Below are positions 5,577-33,079 of a DNA stretch of 34,667 nt, piece after piece. The stretch is from an uncultured Bacilli bacterium. Lineage in GTDB: Bacteria; Bacillota_I; Bacilli_A; RF39; UBA660. How positions within the stretch are numbered: the stretch's first letter is position 1; every line of letters begins with the position of its first letter. Location of the stretch: positions 1 to 34,667 of the forward strand of contig CANQPC010000014.1 of the NCBI GenBank assembly GCA_947625625.1, read 5' to 3'. The notes beneath the pieces are model-generated. The model ran no database searches, had not been told where the DNA came from, and saw only the letters and a program-made list of their open reading frames with translations. The position numbers and the translations under genes are program-made.

Positions 5577-5957
5577 TTACTCTTCCTCCTTACACTGCAA
5601 ATCAATACTGTAAGTAAACTCTCGCTTATCACAATTGTAAGTTACTGTAACCTTAGTATTATTAGCTAGTTCTTTATTTGTTTTGGGATTTATGAGTTCT
5701 CCCTTTAAATCACCAGAAGATATAAGTGTACTTACAGTAATATATTTTTCAGTATCACAAGAAAAACCTAGCTCATATTTATTATTTTCGACATACATTT
5801 TAGTAGCACCAATAATATTATTTTCAAGTTCAGTACATGCTTCTTCCTTTTCTTTATCAATTAATACTAATACATTAGGAATTAAAATAAGTGACAAAAG
5901 AGCAATAATAGCTACTACTAAAATAACTTCGATTAAGGTAAATCCTTTTCTATTCAC
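5577..5957 (-). CDS. Type IV prepilin-like protein
   Basis: N-terminal NRKGFTLIEVILVVAIIA is a classical prepilin leader: basic residues, Gly before the cleavage site, Phe+1 and Glu+5, then a hydrophobic helix. After cleavage it would be a roughly 120-aa pseudopilin with a globular domain containing four cysteines. The frame is open to ATG 5972, but GGAG sits 9 nt before a GTG at 5957 that gives the compact leader MNRKGF, typical of the class; this GTG overlaps the upstream gene's stop by 8 nt. No pilus assembly genes (ATPase, PilC, PilD) are in the window, so the machinery must be elsewhere. Confidence 0.8.
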   Translation of the reverse strand: MNRKGFTLIEVILVVAIIALLSLILIPNVLVLIDKEKEEACTELENNIIGATKMYVENNKYELGFSCDTEKYITVSTLISSGDLKGELINPKTNKELANNTKVTVTYNCDKREFTYSIDLQCKEEE

Positions 5958-6402
5958 TATCATCAACTCCATTGTAATAAATTTTTGTCAAACGTATATT
6001 ATTTTGATCCGAAATGTTCGAACAATTAGCATCACCAAATAACGAAATGTAATTATTATTATAAACAAGATGGCAAAAGCTATCACTGCAAAAAAGCTTA
6101 ATTTCATAATCTTTAGGTAGGTAAGTAAAGCATTCAAAAGAAACATTTAAATATCTACTATTAGTGATCGAAAAGACATATTTACCATCATATTCTGTCC
6201 TATAACCACTGGTGGTAATTTGTTTATTAGGTTCAGTAAGTTTTTCAAGACTATACTTACTACTTATGTCATCCGTAATTACATCTAATCTATTACTTTT
6301 AGCTCCAAGTACTGCTAGATAAGAAGAAGTTAAAATAACAAACAAGATAAGTAGTCCATATAGAACACTAGTAATAGCAAAACCCTTATTATCTAGTTTC
6401 AT
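5950..6402 (-). CDS. Pilin-like membrane protein
   Basis: A 150-aa protein starting MKLDNKGFAITSVLYGLLIL: a short basic leader, Lys-Gly-Phe and a hydrophobic helix, like a pseudopilin but lacking the usual Glu+5. The exported part has several cysteines (about 90-130). The first ATG (6408) abuts AGGAGG with no spacing, whereas the third codon, ATG 6402, lies 6 nt after it and is chosen. Overlaps the following pilin-like gene by 8 nt and follows the deacetylase gene by 12 nt, so the three are probably one operon. Function unknown; a minor pseudopilin is the best guess. Confidence 0.65.
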   Translation of the reverse strand: MKLDNKGFAITSVLYGLLILFVILTSSYLAVLGAKSNRLDVITDDISSKYSLEKLTEPNKQITTSGYRTEYDGKYVFSITNSRYLNVSFECFTYLPKDYEIKLFCSDSFCHLVYNNNYISLFGDANCSNISDQNNIRLTKIYYNGVDDSE

Positions 6403-24822: not shown

Positions 24823-25479
24823 TTAAGAGGAAGGGGTAAGCTGTCTTGCTTCGGCATCAATTCTAGCGGTGAAACTAGCATTTTGTGAAGCATCAACCGC
24901 TGTATTACCATCGACATAAAATACTATTAAATATTCTTTTTTGGTATTATCTCTAGGAAGTGGTGTATCTAATATGTTAGTTTTTCCCGTACTGACAATA
25001 TTAGATTTTTTTAGTACCTTAAATGTTTGTTCATACAAAGTATCAGAAGTAATATCGGGGTATTCTTCCGAAGAATATTCTAAAACAGCATATCTTAATG
25101 CCGAAGAACTTTCACCACCTGTCGCATAAGAACTATCTAAATCACTTATTGTAAGATTAATACTTGCTTCAGCATCGATATTACAGCCAATCTTTAATGC
25201 AAGGCTTACATTTGTAATTACCATACCTTTTTTTATTATCATATTATCACTGTCTGGAAAAATAGCACTTTCATCAAACAATTTTAAATTGGCACCGATA
25301 ATATCTTCTCCCTTTAGATAATCAATATCAAAACAGCTCGTATTACCACCTACGACAATATTACTACTCCGCCAAGTAAACCAAGCATAAGTAAATCCAG
25401 CAACTAAAGCGACAAACAAAGTAATGCCGATAATTCCCCCAACTAATTTAGCATTTTGCAAATTTAGTCCCTTTTTCAT
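24823..25479 (-). CDS. TasA/CalY-like surface protein
   Basis: A 218-aa protein. After a basic N-terminus and hydrophobic helix (about 11-32) comes GFTYAWFTW, the signature of SipW-type processed biofilm-fibre and camelysin proteins. The exported domain (about 35-215) is beta-rich by composition, contains an Asn/Ser/Thr-rich core and ends in a short Ser-rich tail. It shares layout with the 186-aa protein at 21171. GAGGAG 7 nt before the ATG, promoter at 25507-25535 and a terminator at 24789-24810 make it a single-gene unit. Fibre formation is inferred from the leader type only. Confidence 0.65.
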   Translation of the reverse strand: MKKGLNLQNAKLVGGIIGITLFVALVAGFTYAWFTWRSSNIVVGGNTSCFDIDYLKGEDIIGANLKLFDESAIFPDSDNMIIKKGMVITNVSLALKIGCNIDAEASINLTISDLDSSYATGGESSSALRYAVLEYSSEEYPDITSDTLYEQTFKVLKKSNIVSTGKTNILDTPLPRDNTKKEYLIVFYVDGNTAVDASQNASFTARIDAEARQLTPSS

Positions 25480-26897: not shown

Positions 26898-27389
26898 TTA
26901 ATTAAATTTTACGGAAATATACATCTTTTCATCAAATTCATTTTGTACTAGTCTCATAATATTGTTCGCCATAGTAGTACTAGAATCATCAGAATCAAGT
27001 ACTACTCTAATATTATCGCCATCAATCTTGACAAAATTTTCACAAGAACAAGATTCTTTTATCTTTGCTTCTAAAGTTTCTTCGATAGATGAATTTTTAT
27101 TTATCGTCTTTAACTCTTCAAAAGCACTATTTTTTTCTTCGACCGTAGCTTCACTATCAGTAAGTTTTTCTTTTAAAGAGTTAATCTTTTCTAAAATGCT
27201 ACTATCGTCTTCGACTTTTAGGGCCGCTATTAAGGTAGACTCACTGATACTTGTCTCTTCCTCACCTATCCCTTTATCTTCTTGATTACCTACTTTAAAT
27301 ACTTCACTAGGCATTGTAACATAATAAATTGAAAGTACTAGAACTAAACTAAATAAAGTTAGAAACCACAAATTTTTCTTATTTATCAT
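26898..27389 (-). CDS. spoIIIAH: Stage III sporulation protein AH
   Basis: A 163-aa single-pass protein. The N-terminus NKKNLWFLTLFSLVLVLSIYYVT (3-25) matches SpoIIIAH closely, and the C-terminal ring-building domain (about 65-163) keeps EEKNSAFEELKTI, DGDNIRVVLDS and a final YISVKF strand. In engulfed sporangia the mother-cell SpoIIIAH bridges to forespore SpoIIQ and forms part of the channel. The linker between helix and domain is shorter than in B. subtilis. GAGGAAG before the ATG. The rest of the spoIIIA operon (AA-AG) is not upstream, where pilin-like surface genes sit instead; a degenerate CATATTTTA near 27437 is a possible sigma-E -10. Confidence 0.85.
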   Translation of the reverse strand: MINKKNLWFLTLFSLVLVLSIYYVTMPSEVFKVGNQEDKGIGEEETSISESTLIAALKVEDDSSILEKINSLKEKLTDSEATVEEKNSAFEELKTINKNSSIEETLEAKIKESCSCENFVKIDGDNIRVVLDSDDSSTTMANNIMRLVQNEFDEKMYISVKFN

Positions 27390-27961: not shown

Positions 27962-30829
27962 TTAAGGTTGTATACAATTACTATTGAATCTGCCTTGCTC
28001 AAGTGGAACATCATCAGCATTTATACAACAGTAACAAGTTCCATTATAAGGTTTAGTATAAGGATAATTAGCTCTACTACATTTTGTAGGGCAATCTTCT
28101 TCAGTACTTCCACCACCGGTACTTCCACCACCGGTACTTCCACCACCAGTACTTCCACCACTATTACAATATGTTTTTAAATAACTTCCTGATAAATAAC
28201 AATTACCATAAGGATAATAATACCAATTATTTCCACTATTATCAACTTTCATTGTAGTTTTATATACATCGACGTATTTGTTATTTGAAACATAACTAAT
28301 AACGCTAGAATTAGAACTAGCACCCGCACGGCAATTTAAGCCATCAGTAGCATCTACACAATAAGTATTACGTGCCTTTTCACATTTTGAATATCCTTCT
28401 CGTAAATTGCCCTCTGCAATTTCCCAATTAGGTTTTGTTACATCATTATTTAAATTATAGCTTGAATTTAATCCATTTATTCTACTATAATTACACTTTC
28501 CGTCAGTACAACTTGTAATATTATAAACAGCAAGTCTTGTACCACTATCCCAATTTTTTACGCCACTATCAGTATAGCAACTATATCTATTACCATTTAT
28601 TAATTTTTCATCCCAATTTACTCCTAAAGTAACCGTACAATCTTTTGAAGAAGCATCACAAAATTCACTAGCATTATATTGCTTACTTTGATCGAATGTC
28701 TTTCCACTACTAGTACATCCTGCCAAGCATAACCACTCATCTTGACTTTTTGCTTTATAATCTGTTAAAACAATATTTAAATAACTACTATTATTATAAT
28801 TAAGCAAGCCATTTTCCCCTAATTTATCATTATAATTGACAACTGTTTCAAATACTTTTCCTGATTCATAAGCATTTCCATCATTACCTTCAGTAAACTT
28901 GCCACCAGATATTTTTCCACCATTGACATTGTATCTGATATGAACTTGATTATTAGTCCAATTTACTCCCAATATGACAGTGCAATCTCCTTTAGAAGCA
29001 TCACAAAAATCTTTGGCATCATACTGTTTACTTTGATCAAATGTCTTTCCATTACTAGTACAACCACTTAGACATTTCCATTCATTTTGACTACTTGCTT
29101 TATAGCCTGTACGAACTATATTCAAATAACTACTATTATTATAATTAAGTAAGCCATTTTCTCCTAATTTATCATTATAATTAATAATCGTTTCTAAAGG
29201 TTTATCATTTTCATAAGCATTTCCATCGCTACCTTGAGTATATTTACCACCTGATATTGATCCACCATTGACATTGTATCTGATATGAACAATATGATTG
29301 TTATATATAGCATAGTATGTACCGCTGTTACTTACATCTTTGGATGCTCCTTTTTCCCAAGTAACTTCATTAGAGCCTTGTACTTCTCCCCATCCTAAAT
29401 GTTCATAACCAGAATATGATAATGATGGTGAAACTATCGAACATGTAGTATTATCATTATATATAGAACAGCTTTTCTTTGTAGCATTTCCCAAAGAATT
29501 ATTGTCATCAAAGGTTATCTCGATATCTTTTTTTGTTATTGCATAATAGTTAACATTATTTCCAATATATTTACTTGCATTATGATTCCAAGTACTTTTA
29601 CTAGAATTTTGATTAGTATCATAGCCTATTATATCGTATCCAGCTCTCGTTATACTAGGTGAAGTTATCTGACATGTTTTTCCTACATCTGCTAGACATC
29701 TTAAACTTACACTATCAGAAGTCTTTCCTCCTATCATAACTGCTCCATTACGATAAAATGTAGCCCCATAAATCATAAATTTTTTATTACTAGAAGCACT
29801 ATTACTACTTTCATCTCTTGTCTCGGCATCAATTGTCACTTCCCCAACATCACTAAATGTTAGACTTACACTGGTATTACTAGTTTTATACCAAATACCT
29901 TCTTGTATATCAGTTGTACTACCTAAGCAAGATCCAGTATTTACTTTACCGCAACTAGCTGCCCTTACATTGCTTGTTGTTCTCTTACTAGATCTAAAAT
30001 AATAGTTACCTTTTCCACCATAAATATTATCACTATAAAATGTTATTTTGGCACTATCACTTTCTGCTACTATAGTTGGTTTTTTAATTGCTTTTGTATC
30101 TTCTTCTGTCTCATTAGAACAAACTTTTGATCCATTTTCTGTTGTAACACAAGCTTTTACATCGTATGATGAGCTACTCGTCAATCCACTTATCACACAC
30201 TTATTACTACTTAAAGGTATTTCTTCTTCTTTCCAATCAGAATAAGAGTCTTCTCGGTAAGTACATACTTTTTCTTTAAAAGGAGAATCAGTAGAAATAT
30301 CAAAGTTAACATCAAATATAACTCTATCAGTATAATTTTCAGCTTCACCAAGTTTAATTTCTCCATCTATTCTTTCATTTCTAACTGTTCCATTACAAAC
30401 ATCGTTAAGTTCACTTGTACTGACTATTTCTTCACCTACTATAGTTTGCGTAACAATATCTTTTTTGACAGCAATATAGTTATCTTCTTTTAATCCATAA
30501 TCGGGATTTAAAGCTTCATCTTCTTTTAGCATTCCTTTATTTATTAATTCCCGAATAGTTACACAAAAATATTTATATTTCTTTAAATTTTCATTCCAAA
30601 CACCAGAAGTTGATATATCTTTCCAAGCATTAAAGGGAGCTTCACTAGAATATATATTCGCAGCTTTTTTAATATTTGAAATAGAAATATTCTTGGCCTT
30701 TTCCTTAGAACTATCGATAGCTTTAATTATTCCAAAAGTAGAGATACCTATTACTAGTGCAGTAATAGCAATCGTCACTAAAAGCTCAACTAAAGTAAAT
30801 CCTTTTCTATTATTAAAATGTCTATTCAT
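27962..30829 (-). CDS. Giant multidomain surface protein with a prepilin leader
   Basis: A 955-aa protein whose N-terminus, NRKGFTLVELLVTIAITALV (about 7-26), is a class III prepilin signal with Gly-1, Phe+1 and Glu+5. Then comes a pilin-like helix and globular part (to about 160), a fibronectin-like segment (about 165-235), InlB-type repeats with the W-x-x-G-Y-D pattern (about 345-500), two 115-aa repeats beginning VHIRYNVNGG (coded by 28601-29290), a bacterial SH3-like domain (about 815-895, YCVDATDGLNCRAGASS) and a GGGST linker before a Cys-rich C-terminus. Most pseudopilins are 100-250 aa, so this is exceptional. Many cysteines suggest disulfide bonding. GGGAGG 7 nt before the ATG; promoter 30855-30883. 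Likely an adhesin or tip pilin. Confidence 0.8.
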   Translation of the reverse strand: MNRHFNNRKGFTLVELLVTIAITALVIGISTFGIIKAIDSSKEKAKNISISNIKKAANIYSSEAPFNAWKDISTSGVWNENLKKYKYFCVTIRELINKGMLKEDEALNPDYGLKEDNYIAVKKDIVTQTIVGEEIVSTSELNDVCNGTVRNERIDGEIKLGEAENYTDRVIFDVNFDISTDSPFKEKVCTYREDSYSDWKEEEIPLSSNKCVISGLTSSSSYDVKACVTTENGSKVCSNETEEDTKAIKKPTIVAESDSAKITFYSDNIYGGKGNYYFRSSKRTTSNVRAASCGKVNTGSCLGSTTDIQEGIWYKTSNTSVSLTFSDVGEVTIDAETRDESSNSASSNKKFMIYGATFYRNGAVMIGGKTSDSVSLRCLADVGKTCQITSPSITRAGYDIIGYDTNQNSSKSTWNHNASKYIGNNVNYYAITKKDIEITFDDNNSLGNATKKSCSIYNDNTTCSIVSPSLSYSGYEHLGWGEVQGSNEVTWEKGASKDVSNSGTYYAIYNNHIVHIRYNVNGGSISGGKYTQGSDGNAYENDKPLETIINYNDKLGENGLLNYNNSSYLNIVRTGYKASSQNEWKCLSGCTSNGKTFDQSKQYDAKDFCDASKGDCTVILGVNWTNNQVHIRYNVNGGKISGGKFTEGNDGNAYESGKVFETVVNYNDKLGENGLLNYNNSSYLNIVLTDYKAKSQDEWLCLAGCTSSGKTFDQSKQYNASEFCDASSKDCTVTLGVNWDEKLINGNRYSCYTDSGVKNWDSGTRLAVYNITSCTDGKCNYSRINGLNSSYNLNNDVTKPNWEIAEGNLREGYSKCEKARNTYCVDATDGLNCRAGASSNSSVISYVSNNKYVDVYKTTMKVDNSGNNWYYYPYGNCYLSGSYLKTYCNSGGSTGGGSTGGGSTGGGSTEEDCPTKCSRANYPYTKPYNGTCYCCINADDVPLEQGRFNSNCIQP
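28105..28164. repeat. Four tandem 15-bp repeats coding a GGGST linker
   Basis: Unit GTACTTCCACCACCG on the + strand, copies from 28105, 28120, 28135 and 28150, the last two with single changes. Coded on the minus strand as a Gly-Gly-Gly-Ser-Thr linker; such arrays can change copy number by slippage. Confidence 0.9.
28601..29290. repeat. Two 345-bp direct repeats in the giant pilin-like gene
   Basis: Copies 28601-28945 and 28946-29290 code 115-aa modules with near-identical blocks such as NYNDKLGENGLLNYNNSSYLN (split as NYNDKLGENG and LLNYNNSSYL) and GKTFDQSKQY. High identity implies recent duplication. Confidence 0.85.
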
Positions 30830-30854
30830 TACTAGCCCTCCCTATGATACTTTA

Positions 30855-30883
30855 ATTTTATCATGCTTAATGATATTTTTCAA
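30855..30883 (-). promoter_or_regulatory. Promoter of the giant pilin-like gene
   Basis: Minus strand TTGAAA (30878-30883), 17-nt spacer, TAAAAT (30855-30860) with a TG extension. Confidence 0.65.
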
Positions 30884-30898
30884 TACACTTTAAAAAAT

Positions 30899-33079
30899 TT
30901 ATATTCTTATTGGATCAAAATCAATTTCTATATTCACTTTACTATTCTGCTTATAAACATTATTAACAAACTTTAATGCTTCTTTAAGTTTATCATCTTT
31001 TCGATATTTAACTATTATCTGATAGTGATAAATATTATTTACTTTAAACATACTAGCCATCGATGGTCCTAAAATAATAGTTTCTATATTAACGTTATTT
31101 TTTAAATAATTACTTACTTTATCGGCTTCTTTAAAACCTAAATCGTAATCTTTCGTAGTAATCTTTACTAGTACCATGTAATAATAAGGTGAATACTTAA
31201 GTAACTTTCTAATTTTCATTTCTTCTCGATAAAATTTTAAATAATTATGTTCTTTAGCTAAAGCTATACTATAATGACTGGGATTGAAAGTTTGAATAAT
31301 AACTTCGCCCTTATTTTCTCCCCTTCCGGCACGACCTGATACTTGTGATAATAGCTGAAAGATATTTTCACTAGCTCGGTAATCTGGAGCAGTAAGAGAA
31401 GAATCAGCCGAGACAACTCCGACTAATGTTACCGAAGGAAAGTCGAGACCTTTAGCAATCATCTGAGTACCAATTAATATATCGTATTTATGTTCTCCAA
31501 AATCATCAATTATCTTTTGATGTTGTCCTTTTTTACTTGTCGTATCGACATCCATTCTAACTATTCTGGCATCATATAATTTAAAAAGTTCTTCCTCTAA
31601 TTTTTCTGTTCCGAGGCCATAATCTTTAATATTAGTACTACCGCAGATAGAGCATTTGGTATTTGGCATCTTGGAAGAAGAACAATAGTGACATTTTAAG
31701 GTATTACTTGACTTATGATAAGTATAGGCAATATCACACTTCGGACATTTTTCGGTATTTCCGCAATCACGACAACTTATAATACTAGAATAACCTCTCC
31801 GGTTGAGTAAAAGAATAATTTGTTCTTTCTTATCTAATTTTTCTTTGATTTTTTTCTTTAATATTTCCGATAAAATAAAATTACCTTTTTTAACTTCTTC
31901 TTTCATATCGACAACATTAACGACAGGAAGAGTCATATTTTGAGCTCTTTTAGTTAGTGTAAGTAATTCGTAGACATTATTACCGGCTCTAGCGAAAGAT
32001 TCTAAACTAGGAGTAGCGGACCCCATGACGACCGGACAATTATGATATTTGCTTCTCCAAATAGCTATATCTTTGGCATTATATCTCGGATTATTTTCTT
32101 GCTTATAAGAAGAAGTATGTTCTTCATCGATAATAATAACTCCTATATTGGTAAAGGGAACAAAGATAGCGCTTCTCGTTCCAATGACGATTTTAACTTC
32201 TCCGTCAGTAATTTTTCGATATTCGTCGTACCTTTCGGCATCGGAAAGCTTCGAGTGTAAGACCGCTACGACATTGCCAAAGCGTGATATAAATTTGCCA
32301 ACTATCTGTGGTGTCAAACTTATTTCTGGAACTAACATAATAGCTTCTTTGTTTAACTTTAAAGTTTCCTCGATTATATTCATATATACTTCTGTTTTTC
32401 CAGAGCCAGTAACTCCATACAATAAAAAAGTTTTGGGTATATTAAAAGAACTAATTATAGTATTTGCAACTTTTTCTTGTTCTAAAGTAAGTTTAACTTT
32501 TTTATAATTACTAATTCCCATATATTTATATCGTTTATTTTCTTCATAATTAATTTCAGCAAGACCATTTTTAATAATTGTCTTAATCGAACTAGTAACT
32601 TTAGATATTGGAATATCTCCCTCTTTTAATTTGCATAAAAGCTCTATCTGACTATCATACTTACAATTTTCAATATAATTATCTATTTCTTCAATACTTT
32701 TGATTCTTTTTAAGTATTTATCGTATTTAATCTTTATACTGGTATTAACTTCTGCTTTTAAGGCTTTAGGAAGCATAGCTTGATAACAAGAAACTAAAGA
32801 ACATAATAATTTATCACTCATATTCTTTCCTAATAATAACATCTCTTCATTCAAGACTGGTTCTTCATCTGTTATACCAATTATTTCCTTAATTTTATTT
32901 TTATCAAAGTCAGGAGTAATATTAATTTTCATGACAAATCCTTCAATTATTGTCTTACCAAAAGGTATCTTAACTCTTACGCCAATTTTTATTTTACTGG
33001 CAAGATTATCTGGTACAAAGTAAGTAAAAGTTTGATCTTCTTTCTTAAGTATTGTCTGAGTAAGAACTTCTATATACAT
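30899..33079 (-). CDS. priA: Primosomal protein N' (replication restart helicase PriA)
   Basis: 3'-5' superfamily 2 DNA helicase that recognises stalled forks and reloads the replisome. N-terminal fork-binding domain (about 1-100), Walker A LLYGVTGSGKTEVY (about 217-230), DEEH box IIIDEEHTSSYKQ (about 315-327), GSATPSLESF, a zinc-binding region with cysteine pairs CRDCGNTEKCPKC, CHYC and CSICGS (about 430-480), and helicase motifs ILIGTQMIAKGLDFP and QVSGRAGRG. 726 aa, a little shorter than many homologues but domain-complete. Transcribed alone from 33120-33148; the ribosome binding site (AGGAAGAAG) is weak. Confidence 0.95.
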   Translation of the reverse strand: MYIEVLTQTILKKEDQTFTYFVPDNLASKIKIGVRVKIPFGKTIIEGFVMKINITPDFDKNKIKEIIGITDEEPVLNEEMLLLGKNMSDKLLCSLVSCYQAMLPKALKAEVNTSIKIKYDKYLKRIKSIEEIDNYIENCKYDSQIELLCKLKEGDIPISKVTSSIKTIIKNGLAEINYEENKRYKYMGISNYKKVKLTLEQEKVANTIISSFNIPKTFLLYGVTGSGKTEVYMNIIEETLKLNKEAIMLVPEISLTPQIVGKFISRFGNVVAVLHSKLSDAERYDEYRKITDGEVKIVIGTRSAIFVPFTNIGVIIIDEEHTSSYKQENNPRYNAKDIAIWRSKYHNCPVVMGSATPSLESFARAGNNVYELLTLTKRAQNMTLPVVNVVDMKEEVKKGNFILSEILKKKIKEKLDKKEQIILLLNRRGYSSIISCRDCGNTEKCPKCDIAYTYHKSSNTLKCHYCSSSKMPNTKCSICGSTNIKDYGLGTEKLEEELFKLYDARIVRMDVDTTSKKGQHQKIIDDFGEHKYDILIGTQMIAKGLDFPSVTLVGVVSADSSLTAPDYRASENIFQLLSQVSGRAGRGENKGEVIIQTFNPSHYSIALAKEHNYLKFYREEMKIRKLLKYSPYYYMVLVKITTKDYDLGFKEADKVSNYLKNNVNIETIILGPSMASMFKVNNIYHYQIIVKYRKDDKLKEALKFVNNVYKQNSKVNIEIDFDPIRI

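Follow-up and report, generated by a model that had tools for sequence, protein, structure and literature searches.

The window, which is the whole stretch of 34,667 nucleotides analyzed from an uncultured Bacilli bacterium, carries on its reverse strand a gene (27962..30829) for a giant modular prepilin of 955 residues. The N terminus of this protein is a complete pilin module, more than a leader, and the module is followed by a long and varied ectodomain. Its length is about seven times that of an ordinary pilus subunit. Judged by its sequence, the giant prepilin belongs with the modular type IV pilins. We consider it probably a modular minor type IV pilin that is displayed at the filament tip and acts as an adhesin or wall binder.

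The giant prepilin gene and its orthologs

The open reading frame comprises 955 intact codons with no internal stop, and the extent of the whole gene is supported by synteny with the loci L073 and L076 of relatives. A strong ribosome-binding site, AGGGAGGG, lies 6 nt upstream of the ATG; together with an extended -10 promoter-like site (TTGAAA-17-TAAAAT), it occupies 30836..30883 on the reverse strand, as a consensus match only. The gene order is priA (30899..33079, reverse strand), the giant prepilin gene, a small membrane-protein gene, and then a spoIIIAH-like gene (26898..27389, reverse strand), priA and spoIIIAH being the conserved upstream and downstream neighbors, respectively. No pilus gene adjoins the giant prepilin gene, which stands alone beside priA. 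A separate small prepilin of 131 residues is encoded elsewhere in the window (5577..5972, reverse strand). The window also holds an open frame for a DUF285 (BspA-like) leucine-rich surface protein that reaches the contig edge (33166-34596) and a gene for a 218-residue protein (24823-25479) with a TasA/SipW-like N terminus, recognized by eye and with no profile match; similar proteins are found in L024 and L029. No relative of the giant prepilin was found in plasmid and phage records, so there is no sign of a mobile element.

Relatives of the locus were found with priA as bait, and those that are named belong to uncultured Tenericutes/Bacilli MAGs; genome size and relatives suggest that the family falls within the order RF39. 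A search of genome contigs with the whole giant prepilin returned no relative, the search patterns having fallen in variable parts of the protein. At L073 and L076, giant prepilins of 1167 and 1121 residues, respectively, occupy the same position between priA and spoIIIAH; at L075, from a close relative, priA is followed directly by spoIIIAH without a giant prepilin gene. The orthologs keep the pilin module (44-55% identity) together with a class III signal bearing Glu5. The ortholog ectodomains vary in the number, order, and kind of their modules, with extra Flg_new repeats in L073 and OmpL47/Ig-like repeats in L076. The locus combines a conserved pilin module with a mosaic ectodomain.

The leader and the type IV pilin module

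All features of the protein described below lie on the reverse strand. The class III leader peptide spans residues 1-10 (30800..30829), with a predicted PilD cut after Gly10 and a glutamate at +5 (residue 15). The N terminus reads MNRHFNNRKG up to Gly10, which ends the leader, and continues as FTLVELLVTIAITALVIGIS into a hydrophobic helix. A sequence-only reading of the window had described a 955-residue protein with a prepilin leader at 27962-30829, and this description is borne out: the open frame coincides exactly, Pfam N_methyl reaches 31.8 bits where the cut-off is 21.2, and TIGR02532 also lies above its curated cut-off. The accompanying premise that a prepilin of such size is anomalous is outdated, as modular pilins are a described class of more than 1,200 proteins in 264 architectures (PMC8179133).

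The type IV pilin module, delimited by homology, AF2, and PDB pilins, covers residues 1-145 (30395..30829), in which a helix (13-62) is joined to a small beta domain. A stand-alone prepilin of 122 residues from the same genome aligns, for most of its own length, with residues 7-143 (34%, E 6e-10), and residues 7-137 align with the N terminus of an 824-residue paralogous prepilin (45%, E 2e-22), the remainder of this paralog being unrelated. A profile of the module matches type IV pilins in the PDB with E-values down to 6e-9. The AF2 model of residues 1-150, built from four sequences, has a pLDDT of 75 and shows a 50-residue helix followed by the small beta domain. Foldseek of this model gave no significant PDB match; in a second structural comparison, pilins or a pseudopilin (the XcpGHIJK pseudopilus, F. 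tularensis PilE, PAK pilin, and FimA) made up four of the top five rows at modest Z scores of 3.5-4.3. The AF2 fold of the full-length protein (three sequences, pLDDT 37) was unreliable and was set aside.

Sequence features of modular pilins occur here together. The class III signal (N_methyl, IPR012902) ends in glycine and is followed by glutamate at +5, a long helix and a small globular domain with a modest structural Z precede the extra modules, and the genome encodes a prepilin peptidase, an assembly ATPase, and a platform protein. Identity as a Tad (Flp) pilin was rejected: the protein matches N_methyl, has no Tad-family match at E 0.1, and is encoded outside the tad clusters. In a scan of viral contigs with the pilin module, almost all matches were confined to the first 52-85 residues, and at least 80 viral contig loci in IMG/VR (L087-L166) encode proteins with a prepilin-type N terminus.

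Modules of the ectodomain

The ectodomain begins with an Fn3-like stretch at residues 146-250 (30080..30394), a weak assignment made by eye and from a sub-threshold Fn3 match, and an Ig-like stretch at residues 251-350 (29780..30079), which was recognized by eye and is homologous to L073 (36%). Profile comparison places two InlB-type repeats at residues 354-432 (29534..29770) and 434-510 (29300..29530). The InlB-like repeats of the earlier reading are upheld: in profile-profile comparison, residues 354-510 match a relative's clear Flg_new repeats (95.8%, E 7e-9), for which internalin B is in turn a PDB match (E 7e-7). A single-sequence Pfam scan gave no Flg_new match in residues 354-510.

Repeat comparison delimits two four-cysteine modules of 111 residues, module A at residues 514-624 (28958..29290) and module B at residues 629-739 (28613..28945), and modules of this type have homologs in other proteins of the family. 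They had been described as two almost identical modules of 115 residues. Two repeats with a 115-residue period are indeed present, but the modules themselves measure 111 residues and are 79% identical at the protein level, for which "almost identical" is too strong. The underlying DNA direct repeat is 300 nt long and 80% identical, with its copies 345 nt apart. Profile comparison of the 111-residue modules with the Flg_new repeats aligned only 15 columns at a probability of 5%, which does not demonstrate an InlB-like character.

The distal part comprises a Cys segment at residues 742-820 (28370..28606), an SH3b domain at residues 821-887 (28169..28369), a flexible linker, GGST(GGGST)x3, at residues 891-909 (28103..28159), and a six-cysteine C-terminal tail of 46 residues at 910-955 (27965..28102). 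The SH3-like domain and the GGGST linker had been recognized before; the linker stands, the domain is supported by profile comparison, and the tail had gone unmentioned. SH3_3 scores 25.4 bits on the SH3b region, just below the cut-off of 27 (E 1.6e-5), and a three-row profile of the region matches PDB entry 8b2f, a cell-wall-binding domain of SH3-like type (E 7e-5). The giant prepilin contains 34 cysteines, none of them before residue 89. Because every segment, within boundaries that we chose, carries an even number of cysteines, disulfides within the modules are suggested. No VKOR or Thioredoxin_4 oxidase was found in the 91.8% complete genome, where other oxidases may be present. In several ectodomain modules, acidic residues outnumber basic ones.

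The Cys segment and SH3b domain form a portable distal unit. In the relative G061 they recur on two 400-residue proteins (35-37% identical, E 1e-21 and 8e-20). One (L170:1333-2532) has an N terminus that matches a minor prepilin, the one beside PilB (47% over 66 residues), and the other (L171:1729-2928) is not a pilin and bears a SipW-type signal, sub-threshold for TIGR04088 at 18.2 bits against 19. In both proteins, a Ser/Gly-rich stretch comes after the unit, and next comes a Cys-rich tail that contains CxC motifs (tandem in L170). Because the distal unit sits on differing proteins of G061, the outer parts seem to be exchanged among carriers at the surface.

Pilus machinery and long prepilins

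The source genome (1.16 Mb in 48 contigs, 91.8% complete) encodes PilD, its gene adjoining that of PilC, so the lack of a prepilin peptidase, which the sequence-only reading had named as evidence that would speak against it, does not arise. A gene for a PilB/GspE-type ATPase is flanked by two atypical minor prepilins. At L025:12333-13698, two atypical prepilin-like proteins (GYITVEV and GFMLGEV), divergent from pilB, were missed by Pfam; they are candidates for minor pilins of the tip complex. No PilT was seen in the source genome. PilM was considered as a means of telling T4P and Com systems apart and was rejected for this purpose: its sole strong match is FtsA beside FtsZ, which gives no evidence of a dedicated PilM. 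As neither PilT nor a dedicated PilM was seen, a retractile T4P is unsupported. The pilins of the genome show weak ComG-family similarity. ComEC, a class B sortase, and two Tad-type loci with TadE proteins are also encoded.

The other large prepilin-signal proteins that had been sought in the genome are present: among about eight further N_methyl proteins, three reach 824, 546, and 435 residues. The 824-residue paralog (L026:5948-8422, contig C6) bears Ig-like repeats and a Cys-bearing C terminus of its own and has only the pilin module in common with the giant prepilin. The 546-residue prepilin (L027:8628-10268), encoded near a contig end, carries a weak FGE-sulfatase-like domain (E 0.002), and a further N_methyl signal follows it where the contig stops.

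Long prepilins are common in the family and rare outside it. N_methyl proteins occur in 58 of the 59 surveyed family genomes, with a mean of 11 and a maximum of 35 per genome, and PilD occurs in 55 of the 59. Among the prepilin ORFs listed, which for the family are those with the best E-values, 36 of 149 in the family have at least 400 residues, and the corresponding figure for the remaining families in the phylum sample is 1 of 64 (Fisher p 2e-5); lengths run from stop to stop, and the genomes are not independent. Complete long prepilins free of N reach 1669 and 1820 residues in the family. A 24,037-residue prepilin ORF in G030 proved to be a masked run of N and was dropped from the counts; contig C11 of G030 (L064-L068) holds about 72 kb of masked N, and open-frame lengths across such runs are artifacts.

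Discussion

We propose that the hydrophobic helix would insert the giant prepilin into the cell membrane, where PilD would cleave the leader after Gly10 and PilB and PilC would build a type IV filament that takes in the N-terminal pilin module. An ectodomain so bulky would probably be tolerable only at the filament tip. The stalk of Fn3-, Ig-, and InlB-like modules and Cys-rich modules would then push outward the SH3b head, plus the six-cysteine tail on its flexible linker, and head and tail may bind a surface, which could be the peptidoglycan of the cell itself or of its neighbors or a host glycoprotein. A tip adhesin on a type IV-like pilus, as first suggested from the sequence, is the best-supported reading in view of the pilin module, the presence of PilD, PilC, and PilB, the conserved Glu5, and the precedents, but the support is partial overall, the tip position and the adhesion being what we infer.

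SH3b domains usually bind the cell wall, and such binding would also fit self-anchoring, which would count against a tip adhesin. The giant prepilin could instead be a membrane-tethered, wall-spanning protein that is not polymerized, its pilin helix, processed or not, being a mere anchor and its SH3b domain holding the cell's own peptidoglycan. The cell-wall binding of SH3b relatives, the Cys segment and SH3b unit on the SipW-type-signal non-pilin (L171), and a number of prepilin-signal proteins per genome that exceeds the apparent need of one filament all favor this explanation; however, the whole pilin module with Glu5 is conserved although the rest is reshuffled, and the genome holds PilB, PilC, and PilD. 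We judge it rather unlikely, although it is the main rival. A role as a minor pilin of a competence (Com-like) pilus, with the ectodomain aiding DNA capture, seems improbable. ComEC, the minimal set of PilB, PilC, and PilD with neither PilT nor a dedicated PilM seen, and the weak ComG-family similarity of the pilins would suit such a pilus, but the ectodomain modules are of wall or adhesion type with no known DNA receptor, several are more acidic than basic, and the giant prepilin gene is dispensable in L075. The fragmented assembly might raise the suspicion of an assembly or binning artifact or a chance ORF; this is refuted by synteny, since two independent assemblies each carry a giant prepilin at this locus, and protein-level conservation, a good ribosome-binding site, and the uninterrupted frame likewise make it extremely improbable.

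The tip-displayed minor pilin that we prefer has precedents. Models place Streptococcus sanguinis PilB (vWA) and PilC (Ig-like and lectin) at the pilus tip as adhesins, and both bind host ligands (PMC8179133, PMC9934059). Like the giant prepilin, they belong to a monoderm host and combine a class III signal with Glu5, a small pilin module, and C-terminal extra modules. However, they are about half of 955 residues in length, whereas the giant prepilin has about eight extra modules of other kinds, namely InlB repeats, Cys modules, an SH3b domain, and a Cys tail; moreover, they are encoded in a pil operon, whereas the giant prepilin gene lies alone next to priA. CofB/TcpB (T4bP) and GspK (T2SS), compared by description, are similarly large pilins with extra domains and a tip position (PMC8179133, PMC9934059), but these domains differ from those of the giant prepilin, and GspK has an insertion in the pilin sheet and no Glu5, whereas the giant prepilin has Glu5 and carries its modules after the pilin domain. 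Residues 354-510 resemble InlB B-repeat or Listeria-Bacteroides repeat proteins (Flg_new, PF09479), but the giant prepilin is anchored by a pilin helix, and neither leucine-rich repeats nor a sortase motif were seen in it.

The most extreme multi-domain modular pilin in the published survey has 860 residues (PMC8179133, PMC9934059). Modular pilins are already known, and the giant prepilin is a longer, lineage-expanded variant, one of many in a reduced genome, with an array that differs from those of the described class in how long and how varied it is. No description of giant modular pilins of this lineage was found in the part of the literature covered.

For the family as a whole, we tentatively raise the possibility of a "common stem, exchangeable ectodomain" system. 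A minimal type IV machine would be supplied with many giant modular pilins, distal units such as the Cys segment with SH3b and Cys tail would be swapped among giant pilins, small minor pilins, and SipW-type fiber proteins, and pili would be the main variable surface of this reduced-genome lineage. Should the giant prepilin prove to be a tip adhesin, type IV pilins would serve an uncultured gut lineage with reduced genomes as the main carriers of large binding proteins, and the modular-pilin idea, so far one of a single or two added domains, would come to include long stalks of many domains. The fixed pilin stem with its varied ectodomains would then be a natural domain-swap set, and these proteins would be candidates for how the bacteria attach to hosts or neighbors.
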